NCBI GenBank assembly: GCA_007753915.1
Contig: CP036352.1
Coordinates: forward strand, 806,001-870,000
From: Phycisphaerae bacterium RAS2
Lineage (GTDB): Bacteria > Planctomycetota > Phycisphaerae > UBA1845 > UTPLA1
Reading direction: 5' to 3'
Length of the DNA stretch: 64,000 bases
Each line of letters begins with the position of its first letter. Positions within the stretch are counted from its first letter, which is position 1. Position numbers and translations under genes: made by a program. Of this stretch, positions 13,887 through 21,794 are shown piece after piece. The notes below the pieces were generated by a model that did no database searches, was not told where the DNA came from, and was given only the letters and a program-made list of their open reading frames with translations.

Positions 13887-15557
13887 CTAACCCTTCGTCG
13901 CTTGAACAACCTCGGAAAGCGTTGTAATCCCCTTGCGAACCTTTTCCCAGCCGTCGTCGCGAAGCTGAACCATCCCATGCTGGATCGCGAGGTTGCGAAT
14001 CTTGCCGGAGCTGGATCGTTGCAGGACCAGTTCTCGAATGTCGTCGTCGACCATCATGAGTTCGAAGAGGCCCTTCCGCCCCGAGTACCCCGTGTTTCGA
14101 CATTCCCGGCAGCCGCGCCCGCGGAACAGTTTCTCGCCCTGGTAGTTGAAGTCCGGCGGAATCTCGTGCTTTTCGGGCAGATACTCTTCCTTGCAATGCT
14201 TGCAGATCGTTCGGATCAGGCGTTGCGCGAGAACTGCCTCCAGCGAGCTGGATACGAGAAAAGGCTCCACGCCCATGTCCAGCAAACGCGTCGTGGCGCT
14301 CGGGGCATCGTTGGTGTGAAGCGTCGAGAGCACGAAGTGGCCCGTCAGCGAGGCCTGCACGGCTGTTTCGGCCGTCTCCAGATCGCGAATTTCACCCACC
14401 ATGATGACATCGGGATCGTGACGTAGAAACGCGCGCATGCCCTTGGCAAAGGTCAGCCCCGCTTTCAGATTCACACCGACCTGGTTGATGCCTTCGAGGT
14501 GGTATTCAACCGGGTCCTCGACGGTGAGTGTCTTTAGCTCGTCACTCTTGATGCTGTTCAGCGCGGCGTACAGCGTGGTCGTTTTTCCGCTGCCGGTCGG
14601 GCCGGTCACCAACAGGATTCCGTGCGGCTGGCTGATGACATGCTCGAACTGTTTGCGCATGACGTCCTGAAAGCCCAGGTCCGACATCGACAGCAGAATG
14701 GCCTGCTTGTCGAGAATACGCATGACCACGCCCTCGCCGAACACCATCGGGATGATGCTGACGCGAAGGTCGATCTCGCGCGAGTGCACTTTGATCTTGA
14801 AACTGCCGTCCTGCGGCACGCGCCGCTCCGCGATGTTCAAATTCGATAGAATCTTGATGCGGCTGATGATCGCCGCCTGCAACTGGCGAATCTGCGGCGG
14901 CACGTTCGTGTTCCGAAGGACGCCGTCCACGCGGTAGCGAATTTTCAAGTCGTGCTCATACGGCTCGATGTGAACGTCGCTCGCTCGCTCGTTGATCGCT
15001 TCGAGCAGGATCTCGTTTACCAGCTTGATGACGCTGGCGTCTTCGGCCATTTGCGCCAGGTCGCCGGCCGATTCGCCGACTTCGCTGACGACTTCCAGCC
15101 CGTCGTCCTCGACGAGCTGGCTGACGGTGTCGCCGCCGACGCCGAAGTGCTTCTTGATGATCTCGTTGATCTCGCTCTCTTTCGCGAGGACGGGCCGCAC
15201 CTCCAGCCCGCAGAGCATTCGTAATTCGTCAAACGCATAAATCTGAAACGGGTCCGGCGTCGCCACGCGGATCGACCCATTCACCCGGTCCAGCGGAATC
15301 AGCTTCGATCGATGCACCAGCTTCGACGGCATCTTGCGAAGGATGTCCATGTCGACCTTGATGTCCGGTGCCGTCAGATCCACGACGTCGAAGTGATACA
15401 ACGCCCCCAGTGCCCCCAGCACCGTTGTCTCGCTGCAATAGCCCAGCCGCACCAGCACCCGATCCAGCCGATCCGTCGGACCACACTGCTCGTTGGCCGC
15501 GCGAAGCTGGTCGGACGTGATGGCCTTTTGTTCGAGAAGGATATCGCCGAGATTCAT
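13887..15557 (-). CDS. GspE/PilB-family secretion or pilus assembly ATPase
   Basis: 556 aa, full length for the family. The N-terminal MshEN-type domain (MNLGDILLEQKAITSDQL) is followed by the T2SE ATPase domain. Walker A is GPTGSGKT (319-326), with an Asp box near RHDPDVIMVGEIRD (379-392) and a His box STLHTNDA. A tetracysteine zinc site is present (C452, C455, C483, C486). These hexameric ATPases power type II secretion or type IV pilus extension. The start at 15557 is taken because the MshEN domain begins there; the 33 codons of open frame upstream look non-coding. No other secretion or pilin gene lies nearby, so pilus and type II secretion cannot be told apart. The gene is flanked by an unrelated unknown gene and the kinase operon. 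Confidence 0.93.
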   Translation of the reverse strand: MNLGDILLEQKAITSDQLRAANEQCGPTDRLDRVLVRLGYCSETTVLGALGALYHFDVVDLTAPDIKVDMDILRKMPSKLVHRSKLIPLDRVNGSIRVATPDPFQIYAFDELRMLCGLEVRPVLAKESEINEIIKKHFGVGGDTVSQLVEDDGLEVVSEVGESAGDLAQMAEDASVIKLVNEILLEAINERASDVHIEPYEHDLKIRYRVDGVLRNTNVPPQIRQLQAAIISRIKILSNLNIAERRVPQDGSFKIKVHSREIDLRVSIIPMVFGEGVVMRILDKQAILLSMSDLGFQDVMRKQFEHVISQPHGILLVTGPTGSGKTTTLYAALNSIKSDELKTLTVEDPVEYHLEGINQVGVNLKAGLTFAKGMRAFLRHDPDVIMVGEIRDLETAETAVQASLTGHFVLSTLHTNDAPSATTRLLDMGVEPFLVSSSLEAVLAQRLIRTICKHCKEEYLPEKHEIPPDFNYQGEKLFRGRGCRECRNTGYSGRKGLFELMMVDDDIRELVLQRSSSGKIRNLAIQHGMVQLRDDGWEKVRKGITTLSEVVQATKG

Positions 15558-15789
15558 GACGGTCCGTTGGGGGTTGGAATTCCGTTGAAACGCGACCATG
15601 GCAGCGCGCCGTCCAACCGATGGAGCAGCCTTGCAGCTGGCGCGAACCGCTTCCATCGGAGTCTATCGGCGCATCAGTTCTTACGCTCCCCTACGGCTGC
15701 GGGTTGCAAAGCGAGGCCAACTCGATCAAAGGCCGGGAGCAGTCGTGAAGAACGGTGATAGATTCGTTAACTCCAGCGATAGCAGCGGG

Positions 15790-16455
15790 TTATCGGCCAT
15801 CCGCGGAGAGCGCGACGTCCATGATCCCGGGGGCTTCCCACCCCCACCGTGAATCGGTTGCCCAACGTAGGGCCGCAAGCATGCCCGCGTACTCGCAGGC
15901 GCAGGCCAGGAGCGGCTCGTCGCCGGCCGAATGGACCGGTTCGCCAAAGACGCTGACGGGCAAGGCGAGGGCGATTTCGTGCTCGGCCTGAAGCGCGGGC
16001 ACGGCGCCGGGGTTTGAATGTTGACGTATGGCTATTTCATGGCGCAATCGCCAGAGGCCGCGCTGAACTTCGGCGAGCTTGGTCTGAATATCGCCGCAAC
16101 ATCGGATGGACTCGGCCGGCGGGAGCGGGTCGAAGCAGATGGGCCGTTGCGGATCGACGTGGGGGAACAGCCAGCAGAGGGCACAGAACTCGCCCCAGAC
16201 CTGCCGGAGCCGAAGCGATATTTCGCCGGCTGTATATTCCTTGAGCGTTCGCGGGTCGATCAGAATCTCACGCATCCGGCGCACCGAGCCGGGTGAAGGC
16301 GTCCGGATTTCGTGCAAACCCGCCGGCTCGCCGGTGTGACGTTGCCATGCCACGCGCAACGATGCGACATTTGCCTGCACCGCGTGCGCCGCCGCAGCGA
16401 TGTCGTCGATGTTGCGCGGGGCCAGTGCCGATAACACATGAAGGTCCGTCGACAT
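15790..16455 (-). CDS. Hypothetical protein
   Basis: A 221-aa protein not recognised as a known family. The start MSTDLHVLSALAPRN at 16455 is preferred over an upstream ATG at 16581, because the added residues have poor composition. The sequence is Ala/Leu/Arg-rich and probably helical, with a central Trp/Cys/Pro stretch (GEFCALCWLFPHVDP) and a Trp-rich end (WATDSRWGWEAPG). No signal peptide or membrane segment is evident. It lies upstream of, and in the same direction as, the GspE/PilB-type gene with a 230-base gap, so a shared role is not implied. Coding status is supported by length and balanced composition only. Confidence 0.55.
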   Translation of the reverse strand: MSTDLHVLSALAPRNIDDIAAAAHAVQANVASLRVAWQRHTGEPAGLHEIRTPSPGSVRRMREILIDPRTLKEYTAGEISLRLRQVWGEFCALCWLFPHVDPQRPICFDPLPPAESIRCCGDIQTKLAEVQRGLWRLRHEIAIRQHSNPGAVPALQAEHEIALALPVSVFGEPVHSAGDEPLLACACEYAGMLAALRWATDSRWGWEAPGIMDVALSADGR

Positions 16456-17027
16456 GATTCGATGATAAGCGTGTGGCGTGTCGAAAGGAGATCGTGCAAT
16501 AATCTCGGAACAATCTGACGAGTTATCGGACATTACAACTGTTTGCGTTAACCTGTCACGCATGCTGGCGTTAGCACACATCCGCGTGTTCCTCGCCGCC
16601 TTGTAGCAGCACTGAGGCGCGAGGTCACATGTACTCGTAAGCGATGATTTTCAAAGCAGTTGCGACATCACCGGGTCGGATGATGCCATTGAAAAATGTT
16701 GCTTCGGTTCCACGCCTGAAAGGCCGATTTGGCTTGACGCGGCGGCCTGATTTTTGGTAACATGCGGGTAATCGTCCGAGATGCCACCGGGGATTCCCGC
16801 TCCCGAATGGCCTCGCACGAAGGGATGGGAAGCAGTTTTTTAGACGAACGTGGTTTTCTCGACCGCCGCGCGTGCGACGGTTTTGATGTGTTTCGACGTG
16901 AGTGGGAACAAACTGCAAGAGGGTGGTCTAATCAGACAGAGCAAGGCGTGTTCGATGCCGGAGTGCATCAACAACAGCCCCATGTTCTCCCGTTTTGATG
17001 GATCCATTTTTTAAGGAGCAGGTGTCC
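16456..17027. other. Divergent intergenic region ahead of the large secreted protein gene
   Basis: About 570 bases between the starts of the − strand unknown gene and the + strand secreted protein gene. It holds a candidate promoter (16734-16763) and a probable 5' leader of some 260 bases with a strong ribosome site at its end. A 97-codon − strand frame inside it is judged non-coding. No further structure was recognised. Confidence 0.35.
16734..16763 (+). promoter_or_regulatory. Candidate promoter for the large secreted protein gene
   Basis: TTGACG (16734-16739) and TAACAT (16758-16763) are separated by 18 bases. It is the best sigma-70-like pair in the region and would give a leader of about 260 bases before the ATG at 17028. 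Confidence 0.4.
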
Positions 17028-20000
17028 ATGAGTAACGCAAGAGGCTTTAAGACGCTGTGGATGACGGCGTGCATGTGTTGCGCCATCATCGCCAACACGA
17101 CGTGGACGGCAAAGGCCGACTCGGCTCCCAAGTCGAGCTCGGCTTCTGTTGTTTCACAGGCCGGCCAGCCGACGGTCGCGGATGCAGCGACTCCGGTTGA
17201 TTGGGCTGCTGCCAGCGGCATGACCCCGGTCTTGGCTGATCCGAACCGCGTGATTCCGGTCGATCTGTCCGGCATCGGTGGTGAGGACACCGAAGGCGCC
17301 GATCCGCGCGGCGGCTGTGTCACCATCTACAACAATATGTTGGGTGGCACGTCCGCGTACATCATTGTTGGCTCGGACCGCATCACGGCCGACACCTGCA
17401 CCATGGCCGGCACCAATCGCTTCGTGTGCCAGATCACGGTGTTCGTCGGTTCGTTCGGCGGCATCCCGGCCTTCCCCCTCCGCGTTCAGATCTGGAACAA
17501 CACGTCGCCGTTCTGCCCTGATGCCGGCGCCGTGCTGTTTGCAGAAGACATTCACCTGACGGTCGCTCCGACCTTCCACAACGAAATCTATGCGTTCCCC
17601 GATGTCTTGATCCCCAACACGGTCAACATCGGCTTGGTCACTCCGGTCGTTACGGCGGCCGGAAGCGGCCCGGCGTGGGTCATCACGCGCGACTTCTCGG
17701 GCGCGGGTGAAATCGGAACCAGCGGCGACGTCTTCCTTGAGCAGGATCCTCCGGCTCCGGACGGCTGCACTGCCACGGCTTACTTCTTCGGCGGCGCGCC
17801 GACGCTGGCGAACTTTGGTATCGACATCCAGGCCGGTGCGGGTCCCGATGGCGCCTGCTGCAACCAGCAGACGGCTGTCTGTACCGATCCGACGCCGCTT
17901 GGCAATTGTCTGGATTACTTCCATCGCTGGACGGAAGGCACCTGTGCCGAGGCTGCTCCTTGCATTCTGTGCAACGTGATCCAGGGCACCGACGCCGATC
18001 CGAACACGATCGACTGCAATGCCAACATCGTTGACAACGAGCCGAATTGTGCGGCGAACTACGTGGACACGACCAACAGCGGTTGTGCCTTCTCGCCGGA
18101 TCCCAACAACCCGAACTTCACGAACGTCCAGTGCGGCGATCGCATGTTCGGCACGATGGGAACCTACACCTTCCAGAACGGAACGGTGGTCGAGAATCGC
18201 CGCGACAACGACTACTACCGCTTCACGCTGACCAGCACGTCGCGCGTCACGTGGACGGTCACGAGCGAAGCGGGCGCCAATGCCCAGCTCTTCATCCCGG
18301 TTCCTCCGGGTCCGTGTAACCTCGTCGGTCCGGCAGGTCCGGGCGACGTCGCCTCGGGCACCTCGGGCGCCGGTTGTCTGCCGGCCGTTGCGACGGCTTG
18401 TCTGCCTCCGGGCACGTACTACGCCGTGGCCCGAACTCCGACCACGGTCGGATTCCCCTGCGGAATCGAGTACTGCGGTGTTCTGACTTGTGTTCCGTGT
18501 GATCTGGTTGACGGTGCCTGCTGTCTGCCGACGGGTTGTGTGGATGATCCGAACGACCCGCAAGGTCGCACGAATGCGATTGGTTGCGTCCTCGCCGGTG
18601 GCGTTTACCAGGGCGACGGCTCGACCTGTGGTTCGGTCACTTGTCCGACGCCCCCGACGAACGAGACCTGTCTGACGAAGATCGCGTTGACGAACGACAG
18701 CGTCATGGTTGCGTTCGACACGACCTTCGCCATCACCGAGAGCACCACGACGACCGCGACCTGTGAAAACGGTCCGGTGCCGATCTTCCGCGATATGTGG
18801 TGGGACTACCGCCCGACCGTTGCGAACGTGCCGGCTGGCGTCGTTGCCGGTCGTCTCGTCGTGAGCACTTACGACTCGTGCGTTGACACGCGCGTCGTGG
18901 TCTACCGCGTCGATTGTGGTTCCAACCAAACGGCCCAGTGTGCCGCCCTCGAAGAAGTTGCCTGCAACGACGACATCAACATCAACCGCGGTAACTTCGC
19001 CTCCTATGTCGCGATTTCCGACATCGGCGGCGGCGGCCCGCCGGCGGTTGGCGAATGCTTCAAGATCCGGGTTGGCACGTTCGATGAGACCGACGCCAAC
19101 CGCGGTCCTGGCATGTTGAGGATCGATTTCGTGCCGGTCGCTGATTTCCCGTGGACTGCCAACTCCGGTCGCTGCTGCTGGCCGGATGGCGGTTGCGCGA
19201 TCACGACAGGCGATTCGTCGACCTGCGAGCAGGACGGTGGTTACTTCACACCCGTCTATGACCCGACGGAAGGCGACCCGACCCTGTCCACAATCGCGGG
19301 TATCGGTTGCAAGACGATTCCGTGTCCGGAAATCGGCGAAGCGTGCTTCAAGCCGTTCCGCCTGGCCGGACCGGATGGTCAGGGCCCTGAGCTGCTTCCG
19401 GGCGGCTTCGGCACCACGACCAAGGCCGTTCGCAAGCGGTCGTTCTTCAAGTACCAGATCCCGGTCACGGCAACGCCGGGCCAGGGCATCACGTTCAGCA
19501 CTTGTGGTTCGGACTTTGACACGGTGATCGCGATTTATGCGGACGGCGTGCTGGATCCGACCAACGGCGAGTGCATCGGCACACCGGAAGTGACGAACGA
19601 CGACTGCTCGCCGAACGAGCTGACCGGCGTTACGGCGCAAGGCATCGCATCGTGCTTCAGCGCGACCGAAGCTGACTCGTGTGTCTGTGTGACGGTCGGC
19701 TCGACGCCGGCGTCGCCGTTCTTCCCGGGTAACTTCATCTTCGTTGAGGTCGGTGCGTTCAACTCGATTCTGAACTCGACTCTGGCGACGATTGATCCGG
19801 TTCCGGAGAACTGCGGGACCCCGGTTCTGCTCTCATTGACGGTCACGTCTTCGGCCCAGTGCTTCGCCTGTGCGATCACTTGTCCGGGCGGCGGCGTGCC
19901 GGAGAATGAGCCGGTCTGTGCGGCGAACTACGTGGATACGACCAACGGCGGTTGCAACAGCACCCCGAACGTGTTCACGACGGTTACCTGCAACAGCACG

Positions 20001-21719
20001 GTCTGCGGCGAGGCGGGAACTTACACCTTCCTCGATGGCACCGTCACGCAGAATCGACGCGATACCGACTGGTACCGCCTTTCGGTCGCGACGGCCAGCA
20101 CGTTGAACCTGAACTTCAACGGCGGCTTCCGCGGCATCACGTCGATCTTCAAGCTCGACAATCCGGGTGACCCGTGTGCGGGTAACCTGTTCGGAATCGC
20201 GTCCGCAACGGCGGGCGCGGCCTGCGAAGACACGCCGATTTCGGCGGCGGTTTGCCCCGGTGAGTACATCATCATCGTGGTGCCCAACGTCTTCACCGGT
20301 ATCGATTGCGGAACCGAGTACGTGTTGACCATCGATTGCGATGCCGCCCCGGCGCAGGATTGCTGCAAGGGTGACATGAACAACGACGGCCGACGCAACG
20401 GTCTGGACGTACGTCTGTTCGTCCGGAACATGCTCGCTCCGCCGATCGCTCTGTTCCCGATCGATGGTTGCTACAACCTGAACACGTGCCGCGCCGACAT
20501 GAATGGCGACTATGCCATCACGCTGGCCGACGTGCCGGGCTTTGTGAACCTGCTTCTGACGGCGGCTGATTGTCCGGCCGGTGCGACCTGCGCCGATCCG
20601 GCCAAGTGCCACGTGACCACCTCGGACGGTGGTGCGGTCAGTGCGTTGAGCGCGGCCCTCGGCTGCAATCAGCGGACGACCGACGACTTCCGCCCGAACG
20701 TCAGCGGTGCGATCACGACCGTCTGCTGGCACGGGTTCTACCTGAACCTGGCCGGTGGCGTGGTTTGCCCCGATCAGGCTGGCACCGGCGATGACTTCCG
20801 CATCACCATCTTCAACGACAACGCAGGTGTCCCGGGCGGCGTGCTGTCCGGTCCGCATGCGGTGGCACCGACGAAGACGGCTGATGGGTTTATCCCGCCG
20901 ATCGGCAGCTTTGGTCAGGCCACGCAGTGGCGCTACACGGCGACGATTCCGGCTGTGAACGTCACCGCGGGCACGTGCTACTGGATCGAGATCGTCAACA
21001 ACACGACCGGCGCCTGCTGCTGGTTGTGGTCGCTGGCTGGAACGGCCAACAACGTCTCGGCCTCGCGGCTGGGCGGTACGGCTGGTCAGGCCAACTACGT
21101 GGCGGGTGACCTGTTGAGTGGTGACTTCGCGTTCTGCTTGGACAACATCCGCATCGACAAGCAGGATTGTGGCTTGCCGCAAGGCCGCTGCTGCTTCACA
21201 CAGGGACCGAACGTCCTGTGTCAGAACAGCGACGAGCCGACGTGTCTGAACCTGATCGGTGGTACGTGGACCCTGGGCCAGAACTGCACGAACAATCCGT
21301 GCCCGCAGCTGGCTCCGGACGCCTGTACCGACGCCGCGCCGCTCACGCTGAACGTTCCGAAGGATGGAACGACGGCGGGTCTGACGCCCAGCGCTGGTCT
21401 GGTTCCCTCGTGTGAGTCCACCGGCACCGGTCAGAACACTGCACCGGACGGCTGGTACACCTACACCGCCACGGTCACCGGCCCGCACACCGTTTCGGGT
21501 TGTGCGGATCCGGATCCTGTGTACGACATGATCATGGTCGTGTACAGCGGCGCCTGCGGCAGCTTGACGGAAGTCGGTTGCTCGGACGACGAGTGTGGCC
21601 CGGTGGCGGGCGACTCGACCGTGACGTGGAATGCTGTCAACGGCACGACCTACCGGATCCGAATGACCGGTTGGCATGGCTCGTCGGGTGCCTTCCAGAT
21701 CGTGGTCACCCAGCCGTAA
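17028..21719 (+). CDS. Large secreted cysteine-rich protein with GxCC modules and an internal dockerin-like segment
   Basis: 1563 aa. The ATG at 17028 has AAGGAG 9 bases ahead and starts a signal peptide (MSNARGFKTLWMTACM, cleavage near AKA). Four cysteine modules of the form G-[AR]-C-C...C...C...C-x(3-5)-C are coded at about 17850-17963, 18513-18644, 19167-19325 and 21183-21302. A beta-sandwich unit beginning NEP-C-AANYVDTTN and ending near a DWYR/DYYR motif occurs twice (about 18035-18230 and 19904-20091). A dockerin/EF-hand-like segment with GDMNNDG and ADMNGDY calcium loops lies at 20358-20559, inside the protein rather than at its end. The gene has its own promoter region and a strong terminator, so it is probably monocistronic and abundant. 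A structural or surface role is inferred; no enzyme motif is seen. Confidence 0.88.
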   Translation: MSNARGFKTLWMTACMCCAIIANTTWTAKADSAPKSSSASVVSQAGQPTVADAATPVDWAAASGMTPVLADPNRVIPVDLSGIGGEDTEGADPRGGCVTIYNNMLGGTSAYIIVGSDRITADTCTMAGTNRFVCQITVFVGSFGGIPAFPLRVQIWNNTSPFCPDAGAVLFAEDIHLTVAPTFHNEIYAFPDVLIPNTVNIGLVTPVVTAAGSGPAWVITRDFSGAGEIGTSGDVFLEQDPPAPDGCTATAYFFGGAPTLANFGIDIQAGAGPDGACCNQQTAVCTDPTPLGNCLDYFHRWTEGTCAEAAPCILCNVIQGTDADPNTIDCNANIVDNEPNCAANYVDTTNSGCAFSPDPNNPNFTNVQCGDRMFGTMGTYTFQNGTVVENRRDNDYYRFTLTSTSRVTWTVTSEAGANAQLFIPVPPGPCNLVGPAGPGDVASGTSGAGCLPAVATACLPPGTYYAVARTPTTVGFPCGIEYCGVLTCVPCDLVDGACCLPTGCVDDPNDPQGRTNAIGCVLAGGVYQGDGSTCGSVTCPTPPTNETCLTKIALTNDSVMVAFDTTFAITESTTTTATCENGPVPIFRDMWWDYRPTVANVPAGVVAGRLVVSTYDSCVDTRVVVYRVDCGSNQTAQCAALEEVACNDDININRGNFASYVAISDIGGGGPPAVGECFKIRVGTFDETDANRGPGMLRIDFVPVADFPWTANSGRCCWPDGGCAITTGDSSTCEQDGGYFTPVYDPTEGDPTLSTIAGIGCKTIPCPEIGEACFKPFRLAGPDGQGPELLPGGFGTTTKAVRKRSFFKYQIPVTATPGQGITFSTCGSDFDTVIAIYADGVLDPTNGECIGTPEVTNDDCSPNELTGVTAQGIASCFSATEADSCVCVTVGSTPASPFFPGNFIFVEVGAFNSILNSTLATIDPVPENCGTPVLLSLTVTSSAQCFACAITCPGGGVPENEPVCAANYVDTTNGGCNSTPNVFTTVTCNSTVCGEAGTYTFLDGTVTQNRRDTDWYRLSVATASTLNLNFNGGFRGITSIFKLDNPGDPCAGNLFGIASATAGAACEDTPISAAVCPGEYIIIVVPNVFTGIDCGTEYVLTIDCDAAPAQDCCKGDMNNDGRRNGLDVRLFVRNMLAPPIALFPIDGCYNLNTCRADMNGDYAITLADVPGFVNLLLTAADCPAGATCADPAKCHVTTSDGGAVSALSAALGCNQRTTDDFRPNVSGAITTVCWHGFYLNLAGGVVCPDQAGTGDDFRITIFNDNAGVPGGVLSGPHAVAPTKTADGFIPPIGSFGQATQWRYTATIPAVNVTAGTCYWIEIVNNTTGACCWLWSLAGTANNVSASRLGGTAGQANYVAGDLLSGDFAFCLDNIRIDKQDCGLPQGRCCFTQGPNVLCQNSDEPTCLNLIGGTWTLGQNCTNNPCPQLAPDACTDAAPLTLNVPKDGTTAGLTPSAGLVPSCESTGTGQNTAPDGWYTYTATVTGPHTVSGCADPDPVYDMIMVVYSGACGSLTEVGCSDDECGPVAGDSTVTWNAVNGTTYRIRMTGWHGSSGAFQIVVTQP

Positions 21720-21752: not shown

Positions 21753-21794
21753 CCGCGGCCTCTGAAGGGCAACCTTCAGGGGCCGCGGTTTTTT
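21753..21794 (+). terminator. Rho-independent terminator of the large secreted protein gene
   Basis: A 16-bp stem (arms 21753-21768 and 21773-21788, one G·T pair) with loop GCAA is followed by six T residues. It starts 33 bases after the stop codon at 21719. Confidence 0.92.

Follow-up and report, generated by a model that had tools for sequence, protein, structure and literature searches.

A secreted-type planctomycete protein of sandwich domains and recurrent six-cysteine modules, with a possible likeness between the module and the iRhom domain

What might a planctomycete do with an apparently exported protein of 1563 residues, 5.9% of them cysteine, in which no enzyme can be recognised? 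The gene lies in a stretch of 64,000 nucleotides (the window) analysed from Phycisphaerae bacterium RAS2, whose genome consists of one contig of 4.32 Mb and is 97.4% complete. An earlier note on this DNA had described the product as a secreted protein with four GxCC modules, duplicated sandwich units and calcium-type loops, perhaps an S-layer or matrix protein held together by disulfides, and had pointed to signals of strong expression.

The signals themselves are present around the gene. A Shine-Dalgarno sequence and an intrinsic terminator flank the reading frame, and the N-terminus is of the signal-peptide type (Table 1). The codon adaptation of the gene ranks 8th among 39 ORFs of the window, measured against a ribosomal reference that is rough and contaminated by shadow ORFs. 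Two long ORFs on the opposite strand beneath the gene were taken as GC-driven shadow frames. Cys15 and Cys17, in the hydrophobic core of the signal peptide, are cysteines in 9 and 8, respectively, of 11 aligned proteins, the AxA-type end notwithstanding. The same genome encodes a further GxCC protein with AMTACLCF, a sequence that resembles such a cysteine-bearing core (L108:2-3757, genome positions 1871500-1878500). Besides its four GxCC motifs, this protein has an internal dockerin, which is weak, and what we take to be lamin-tail-like regions and the start of an endonuclease/phosphatase-like region.

The motif G[AR]CC is found five times in the 1563-residue protein, against a mean of 0.08 and a maximum of 2 in 1000 composition shuffles. 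Those at residues 275, 496, 714 and 1386 each open a six-cysteine stretch, in line with the four modules claimed; the fifth, GACCWLW at residue 1328, is part of a sandwich rather than of a module. The two NEP-C-AANYVDTTN units were found near residues 338 and 961 and are 38.7% identical with their surroundings included (E 4e-21). Moreover, no enzyme matched the protein in Pfam or NCBIfam, which accords with the reported absence of a catalytic motif. Weak PPC, dockerin and DUF7901 matches are the three Pfam rows obtained for the whole protein up to E 10; SLH, YTV and rhomboid are absent from them (Pfam presumably includes a YTV model), and NCBIfam gave no match at all. Inspection by eye revealed no anchor or sorting signal at the C-terminus. 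A PDB sequence search with the whole protein gave only matches to a putative phospholipase A2 at E 0.6-0.9, which were rejected as chance matches of cysteines.

The protein was modelled in two parts with AlphaFold (AF2). Residues 92-768 gave a mean pLDDT of 72.2 and a pTM of 0.44 from a 29-row alignment, and residues 766-1563 a pLDDT of 82.7 and a pTM of 0.63 from a 51-row alignment; the domain geometry is poorly modelled in the N-terminal half, as its pTM indicates. The predicted layout comprises two jelly-rolls, five PPC/collagen-binding-like sandwiches (two of them less certain), one dockerin-like segment and four GxCC modules.

Table 1. Features of the locus, with positions in the window and the evidence for each.
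Feature	Position	Strand	Basis
PilB/GspE-type ATPase gene, divergent neighbour	13887..15656	-	T2SSE 464 bits
263-aa protein gene, divergent neighbour	15790..16581	-	no Pfam match at E 0.1
Shine-Dalgarno AAGGAG, 9 nt before ATG	17013..17018	+	direct reading
ORF, 1563-aa secreted-type protein	17028-21719	+	ATG start, read from sequence
Signal peptide, residues 1-31, AxA-type end TAKA/DS	17028..17120	+	sequence and alignment; putative cleavage site, by eye
Antisense ORF, 828 aa, under the gene	17154-19640	-	
Jelly-roll domain 1 (predicted), residues 95-272	17310..17843	+	AF2 model and fold search
GxCC module 1, residues 275-312, divergent	17850..17963	+	motif; six Cys invariant in 11 aligned proteins
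NEP-C sandwich 1, PPC/collagen-binding-like, residues 333-491	18024..18500	+	Pfam PPC below cut-off, fold search
GxCC module 2, residues 496-539	18513..18644	+	profile match 3.3e-8; itself 1 of 20 profile rows
PPC-like sandwich 2, residues 544-708, less certain	18657..19151	+	two-domain fold match
GxCC module 3, residues 714-766, with insert	19167..19325	+	profile match 8.6e-8; itself a profile row
PPC-like sandwich 3, residues 770-943, less certain	19335..19856	+	first half of two-domain fold match
Antisense ORF, 614 aa, under the gene	19833-21677	-	
NEP-C sandwich 2, PPC/collagen-binding-like, residues 945-1106	19860..20345	+	38.7% identity to NEP-C unit 1, fold search
Dockerin-like EF-loop pair, residues 1111-1186	20358..20585	+	Pfam Dockerin_1
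Jelly-roll domain 2 (predicted), DUF7901-like, residues 1187-1375	20586..21152	+	weak Pfam, fold search
GxCC module 4, residues 1386-1425	21183..21302	+	profile match 1.2e-11; itself a profile row
C-terminal PPC/GBD_T9SS_assoc-like sandwich, residues 1431-1563	21318..21716	+	weak Pfam, fold search
Intrinsic terminator, 16-pair stem then TTTTTT	21753..21788	+	sequence

In fold searches, the predicted models of both NEP-C sandwiches matched the collagen-binding domain of ColG (1nqd) with an rmsd of 2.1 over 108 residues (Z 11.3 for residues 333-491 and Z 13.1 for residues 945-1106), and that of the C-terminal sandwich matched 1nqj (Z 11.2, rmsd 2.2 over 95). The two less certain sandwiches fall in two-domain matches to ColG s3a-s3b (5iku), obtained with model residues 242-610 (Z 10.8, rmsd 18.1 over 222) and with residues 8-339 of the C-terminal model (Z 12.9, rmsd 16.6 over 209); we took these large rmsd values to reflect another relative orientation of the domains in the models. 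Pfam scores for the sandwiches stay below the cut-offs: 24.7 bits for PPC on the whole protein and 19.4 on the slice (cut-off 25.9), and 22.3 bits for GBD_T9SS_assoc on the C-terminal sandwich (cut-off 27).

For the predicted jelly-roll 1, the phage phi812 baseplate (9euf; Z 11.8, rmsd 3.1, 148 aligned) and the lectin-like region of Cwp84 (4ci7; Z 11.7, rmsd 3.6, 147 aligned) are tied. Jelly-roll 2, which reaches 21.1 bits for Pfam DUF7901 (cut-off 24), has the central fibre of phage Douge as its top single-domain row (8zdp; Z 11.7, rmsd 3.4 over 157), and also matches a carbohydrate esterase (7toj; Z 9.5, rmsd 3.6 over 147). Given that the top rows include phage structural proteins, 'lectin-like' is one option of several for these predicted folds, a choice among ties, and similarity of a predicted fold is no proof of binding.

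The architecture is conserved well beyond the species. Long homologues (E 1e-90 or better) occur in 8 of the 16 other genomes of the family (G001, G002, G005, G007, G008, G009, G013 and G015). We aligned the window protein with ten full-length or near-full-length homologues from six of these eight genomes; identity to it is 87% in the congener and 33-36% in the other aligned homologues. The domain order is common to all 11 proteins up to GxCC module 4, beyond which several homologues add GxCC and sandwich units; one homologue (L050) ends at a contig end. Overall, 67 of the 92 cysteines are the same in all 11 proteins; for no other residue type does the invariant share exceed 29%. Of the 11 proteins, 7 have a small extra cysteine-rich insert in NEP-C sandwich 1 and 9 have one in sandwich 2; both inserts are missing from the window protein and from its congener.

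The surroundings of the gene are retained in other genera. Both divergent neighbours, encoding the PilB/GspE-type ATPase and the 263-aa protein, adjoin one homologue copy in G001, G002, G013 and G015; of the two, only the 263-aa gene was found in G008, about 5.4 kb from the homologue. A downstream MmgE/PrpD-MBL-acyl-CoA dehydrogenase block (MBL and dehydrogenase named by eye) is also present in G001 and G009. The second homologue copies of G002, G008, G013 and G015 have none of these neighbours within the stretches examined. When named genomes were scanned, the bare protein returned no locus and the 11-protein alignment returned 11, from the planctomycete MAGs PLA2, PLA6 and NC_groundwater_1803, a Phycisphaerales MAG and one Candidatus Zixiibacteriota genome. 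In the last of these (L067), the protein matches within residues 306-1562 and carries two GxCC modules and one non-module GxCC motif; the module and part of the architecture thus exist in another phylum.

The calcium-type loops had been reported at an unusual place, in mid-protein, and that is where they are: DMNNDGRRNGLD starts at residue 1116 and DMNGDYAITLAD at residue 1157 of 1563. Dockerin_1 (PF00404) scores 19.6 bits on the whole protein and 26.2 on the slice, which passes the cut-off of 22.9. Could the protein then belong to a cellulosome-like or 'planctosome' complex, as scaffold or as client, with its dockerin held by a cohesin? Such a cohesin/dockerin complex is hypothesised for other planctomycetes in the accessible part of PMC6461901, and the key positions of the first loop (D1116, N1118, D1120, G1121 and D1127) are invariant in 11 of 11 aligned proteins. 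However, in the second loop D1157 and D1168 are invariant in the 11 proteins, yet the middle acidic residue is lost in 3, the dockerin is internal rather than terminal, and no cohesin (PF00963) match was obtained in the genome itself, 97.4% complete, or in its congener G001, although 11 of the 41 genomes searched have matches, 9 of them over the cut-off. We consider such a complex very improbable here, though a divergent or foreign cohesin could still supply a partner. The mid-protein placement is unusual but not unique: in the retrieved loci of the same genome, a sample rather than a genome-wide census, 14 other dockerin proteins end no more than 8 residues after their last dockerin and 3 have internal ones. 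The segment would rather be a calcium-rigidified linker than a docking device.

The GxCC module has a modal spacing of CC-x5-C-x7-C-x13-C-x4-C, and x4 and x6 are the next commonest first gaps. A profile of 20 modules (A2), to which eight genomes of the order contributed rows and which includes window modules 2, 3 and 4, detected 14 copies in the RAS2 genome at E 0.001. Module 2 was modelled as two short strands, a helix and a short strand (pLDDT about 78-84), and module 4 as strand-strand-helix-strand (pLDDT about 80-84). Module 1, with a pLDDT mostly below 50, was not retrieved from its own genome by the module profile even at E 10; it is a divergent member, known from its pattern and invariant cysteines alone.

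A search for the module across the phylum, which the earlier note had proposed, found it in 20 of 392 sampled genomes, the RAS2 genome being the sole match there from its order. Within the order, it is present in 107 of 114 genomes, including the eight that supplied profile rows, and the top genome has at least 66 copies. Two proteins of other planctomycetes are almost wholly tandem modules, 15 in L113:3529-5604 and 13 in L114:4522-6726. Neither array matches a family in Pfam (E 0.1) or in NCBIfam (E 1); a characterised enzyme family behind the modules, the outcome that would have told against the earlier description, did not emerge.

The module also occurs in varied company. We scanned 37 of 39 GxCC ORFs in 40 loci from the top of the order-wide list; among the 25 of 31 companion families listed are dockerin (8 ORFs), Laminin_G_3 (4), PPC (3), GBD_T9SS_assoc (3), P-domain (2), MAM (1) and lamin tail (1). 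The same list holds an M10 peptidase (1) and a PETase-like family (1), so some modules serve enzymes. The module looks like a promiscuous part of seemingly secreted, often adhesion-type proteins.

Do its cysteines join molecules or hold the module itself together? Among 468 distinct modules from the retrieved loci, Cys1 to Cys6 are present in 466/466, 465/466, 466/467, 465/468, 460/461 and 409/409, counting only modules with a letter at the site and with a threshold that favours complete modules; in a looser search of 562 rows the six are present in 549, 547, 525, 521, 518 and 448. This conservation of six cysteines per module suggests internal rather than inter-protein disulfides. In proteins with two or more modules we saw no paired loss and four single losses; the cysteines hardly vary, so that the pairs cannot be deduced from paired loss.

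The earlier proposal of an S-layer or matrix protein held by disulfides is supported in part: the modular, cysteine-rich make-up finds support, and disulfides as glue between molecules do not. The cysteine counts also weigh on a related alternative, a structural wall or S-layer protein whose cysteines cross-link molecules, by analogy with the YTV wall proteins of Planctomycetales. The cysteine content and the pI of 4.1 would suit such a protein, and cysteine-rich YTV proteins occur in wall preparations of related planctomycetes according to PMC8567305, whose available sections confine YTV genes to Planctomycetales and do not state cross-linking. Against it stand the conserved six-cysteine sets within modules, the lack of any YTV or SLH row in Pfam to E 10, and the peptidoglycan transpeptidases (PF00905) of the genome, with which a protein-only wall is not required; that variant was rejected. 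Intermolecular cross-linking in a wall therefore appears improbable.

We favour a Sec-exported, non-catalytic surface or matrix protein that would act as a rigid multi-ligand adhesin or scaffold, with a probability of about 0.55. This reading draws on the lack of a catalytic family in the 1563 residues, on the three predicted sandwiches that match ColG domains and the jelly-rolls that match, among other folds, lectin- or CBM-like domains, on the domain order and invariant cysteines kept in 11 proteins together with the neighbours, and on the adhesion-type domains of many of the 37 other GxCC proteins. The two jelly-rolls and five sandwiches would bind extracellular polysaccharide or protein, ligands that we infer, like the location, from the domain types. 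Calcium bound by the dockerin loops, and perhaps also by the PPC domains, may stiffen the chain. Each GxCC module would be a staple of about 40 residues with three internal disulfides, capping and spacing the neighbouring sandwiches.

Part of the same evidence could serve an accessory substrate-binding protein of secreted degradation, which would tether hydrolases or substrate near the cell and build no matrix. CBM-like and collagen-binding-like predicted folds would fit this role, as would the GxCC proteins that carry enzyme families; however, neither the gene nor the two conserved genes closest to it encode a recognisable secreted hydrolase, and seven binding-type domains in a conserved string are more than accessory modules usually have. 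We regard this role as unlikely, and retain the adhesin or scaffold.

Moreover, the module has one candidate relative of known structure. Against 177,635 distinct PDB sequences, profile A2 had four matches at E 1 or better, all to iRhom1 or iRhom2, the best at E 5.1e-4. A broader profile of 50 modules (A6) returned the same four only, up to E 10: iRhom1 at 1.4e-4 and 1.8e-4, and iRhom2 at 0.016 and 0.018. The iRhom1 chains have two passing stretches and the iRhom2 chains one passing and one weaker; the second stretch contains all six cysteines, spaced CC-x6-C-x7-C-x13-C-x4-C. Single stretches are weak (i-E 0.12 and 0.75 for iRhom1, 0.44-0.5 for the better one of iRhom2), so that the whole-sequence value of 1.4e-4 rests on two copies.

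One explanation of the match is convergence of small disulfide folds with no common ancestry. It would suit a similarity that spans only about 36 residues and reaches its E-value by summing two weak stretches. Shuffles of three iRhom fragments with fixed cysteines attained the real score in 12, 8 and 0 of 5000 cases, and a reverse search with one fragment among 9784 local ORFs gave GxCC proteins only at a non-significant E 0.8-9, the best row (E 0.27) being a partial match to a 102-aa ORF. Yet iRhom1 and iRhom2 are the sole PDB matches to E 10, both modules of iRhom1 match, and two decoy profiles, in which the cysteine columns were kept and the others permuted, found no iRhom to E 10 (best rows E 3.6 and 0.34). 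Similarly, hhalign gave 74.6% for iRhom against the real profile and 0.6% and 0.2% against the decoys, and 0 of 300 permuted profiles reached the real score. The iRhom fragments were chosen after the hit, and the database E-value is for this reason a fairer figure than the shuffle tests. iRhom is absent from the fold-search rows of both models, which concern the sandwiches and hardly probe the modules. We give convergence a little under an even chance.

The other explanation is that the module is an undescribed, widely reused domain of Planctomycetota that may be of common descent with both structured regions of the iRhom homology domain (IRHD). The iRhom domain is called unique among all known structural domains, with two structured regions predicted, in the available text of PMC8233286; in that of PMC10148629, Foldseek and Dali gave no structural homologue for a model of it, and in that of PMC11248996 its cryo-EM structure, which has 8 disulfides, is called apparently unprecedented. 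A pair of modules would agree with the pair of structured regions. The setting differs, since the 1563-residue protein has no rhomboid family match and presents no rhomboid-like TM1-TM2 insert. We hold shared ancestry tentatively, at clearly less than an even chance, an estimate kept low by the weakness of each stretch on its own and by the lack of significance in the reverse search. The literature searched, which included few subscription papers and some sources in part, yielded neither a link of iRhom to planctomycetes or other bacteria nor a prior description of the module.

If the kinship is real, the key extracellular domain of the animal ADAM17 sheddase regulator would have arisen by duplication of a module with which bacteria staple secreted adhesive proteins by disulfides. 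The module would then show where a domain so central to the release of TNF and EGF ligands came from, and would serve as a compact model of it. Independently of iRhom, the module represents a six-cysteine domain family without a model in the Pfam and NCBIfam copies searched, and with a name for it many planctomycete surface proteins now called 'hypothetical' could be interpreted.

Compared with known systems, the protein resembles the PPC (PF04151) and clostridial collagenase collagen-binding domains in the predicted fold of three of its five sandwiches; it differs in its Pfam scores below the cut-off, in stringing such units without a peptidase and in its extra conserved cysteines. It shares with type I dockerins (PF00404) two EF-type loops, in a slice that exceeds the Pfam cut-off, whereas here the pair is in mid-protein, has extra cysteines and belongs to a genome without a PF00963 cohesin match. 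Like the YTV wall proteins, as described in the accessible part of PMC8567305, it is cysteine-rich, putatively of envelope type and restricted to a planctomycete lineage; unlike them, it has no YTV match and a different module, and YTV genes are limited to Planctomycetales. Finally, the module and the IRHD of human iRhom1 and iRhom2 have a similar six-cysteine signature, with a first gap of x6 there and a modal x5 here. The iRhom domain, with 16 cysteines and 8 disulfides in the published material available, is an extracellular or luminal insert of a seven-helix pseudoprotease, whereas the module is a repeat in apparently secreted bacterial proteins.
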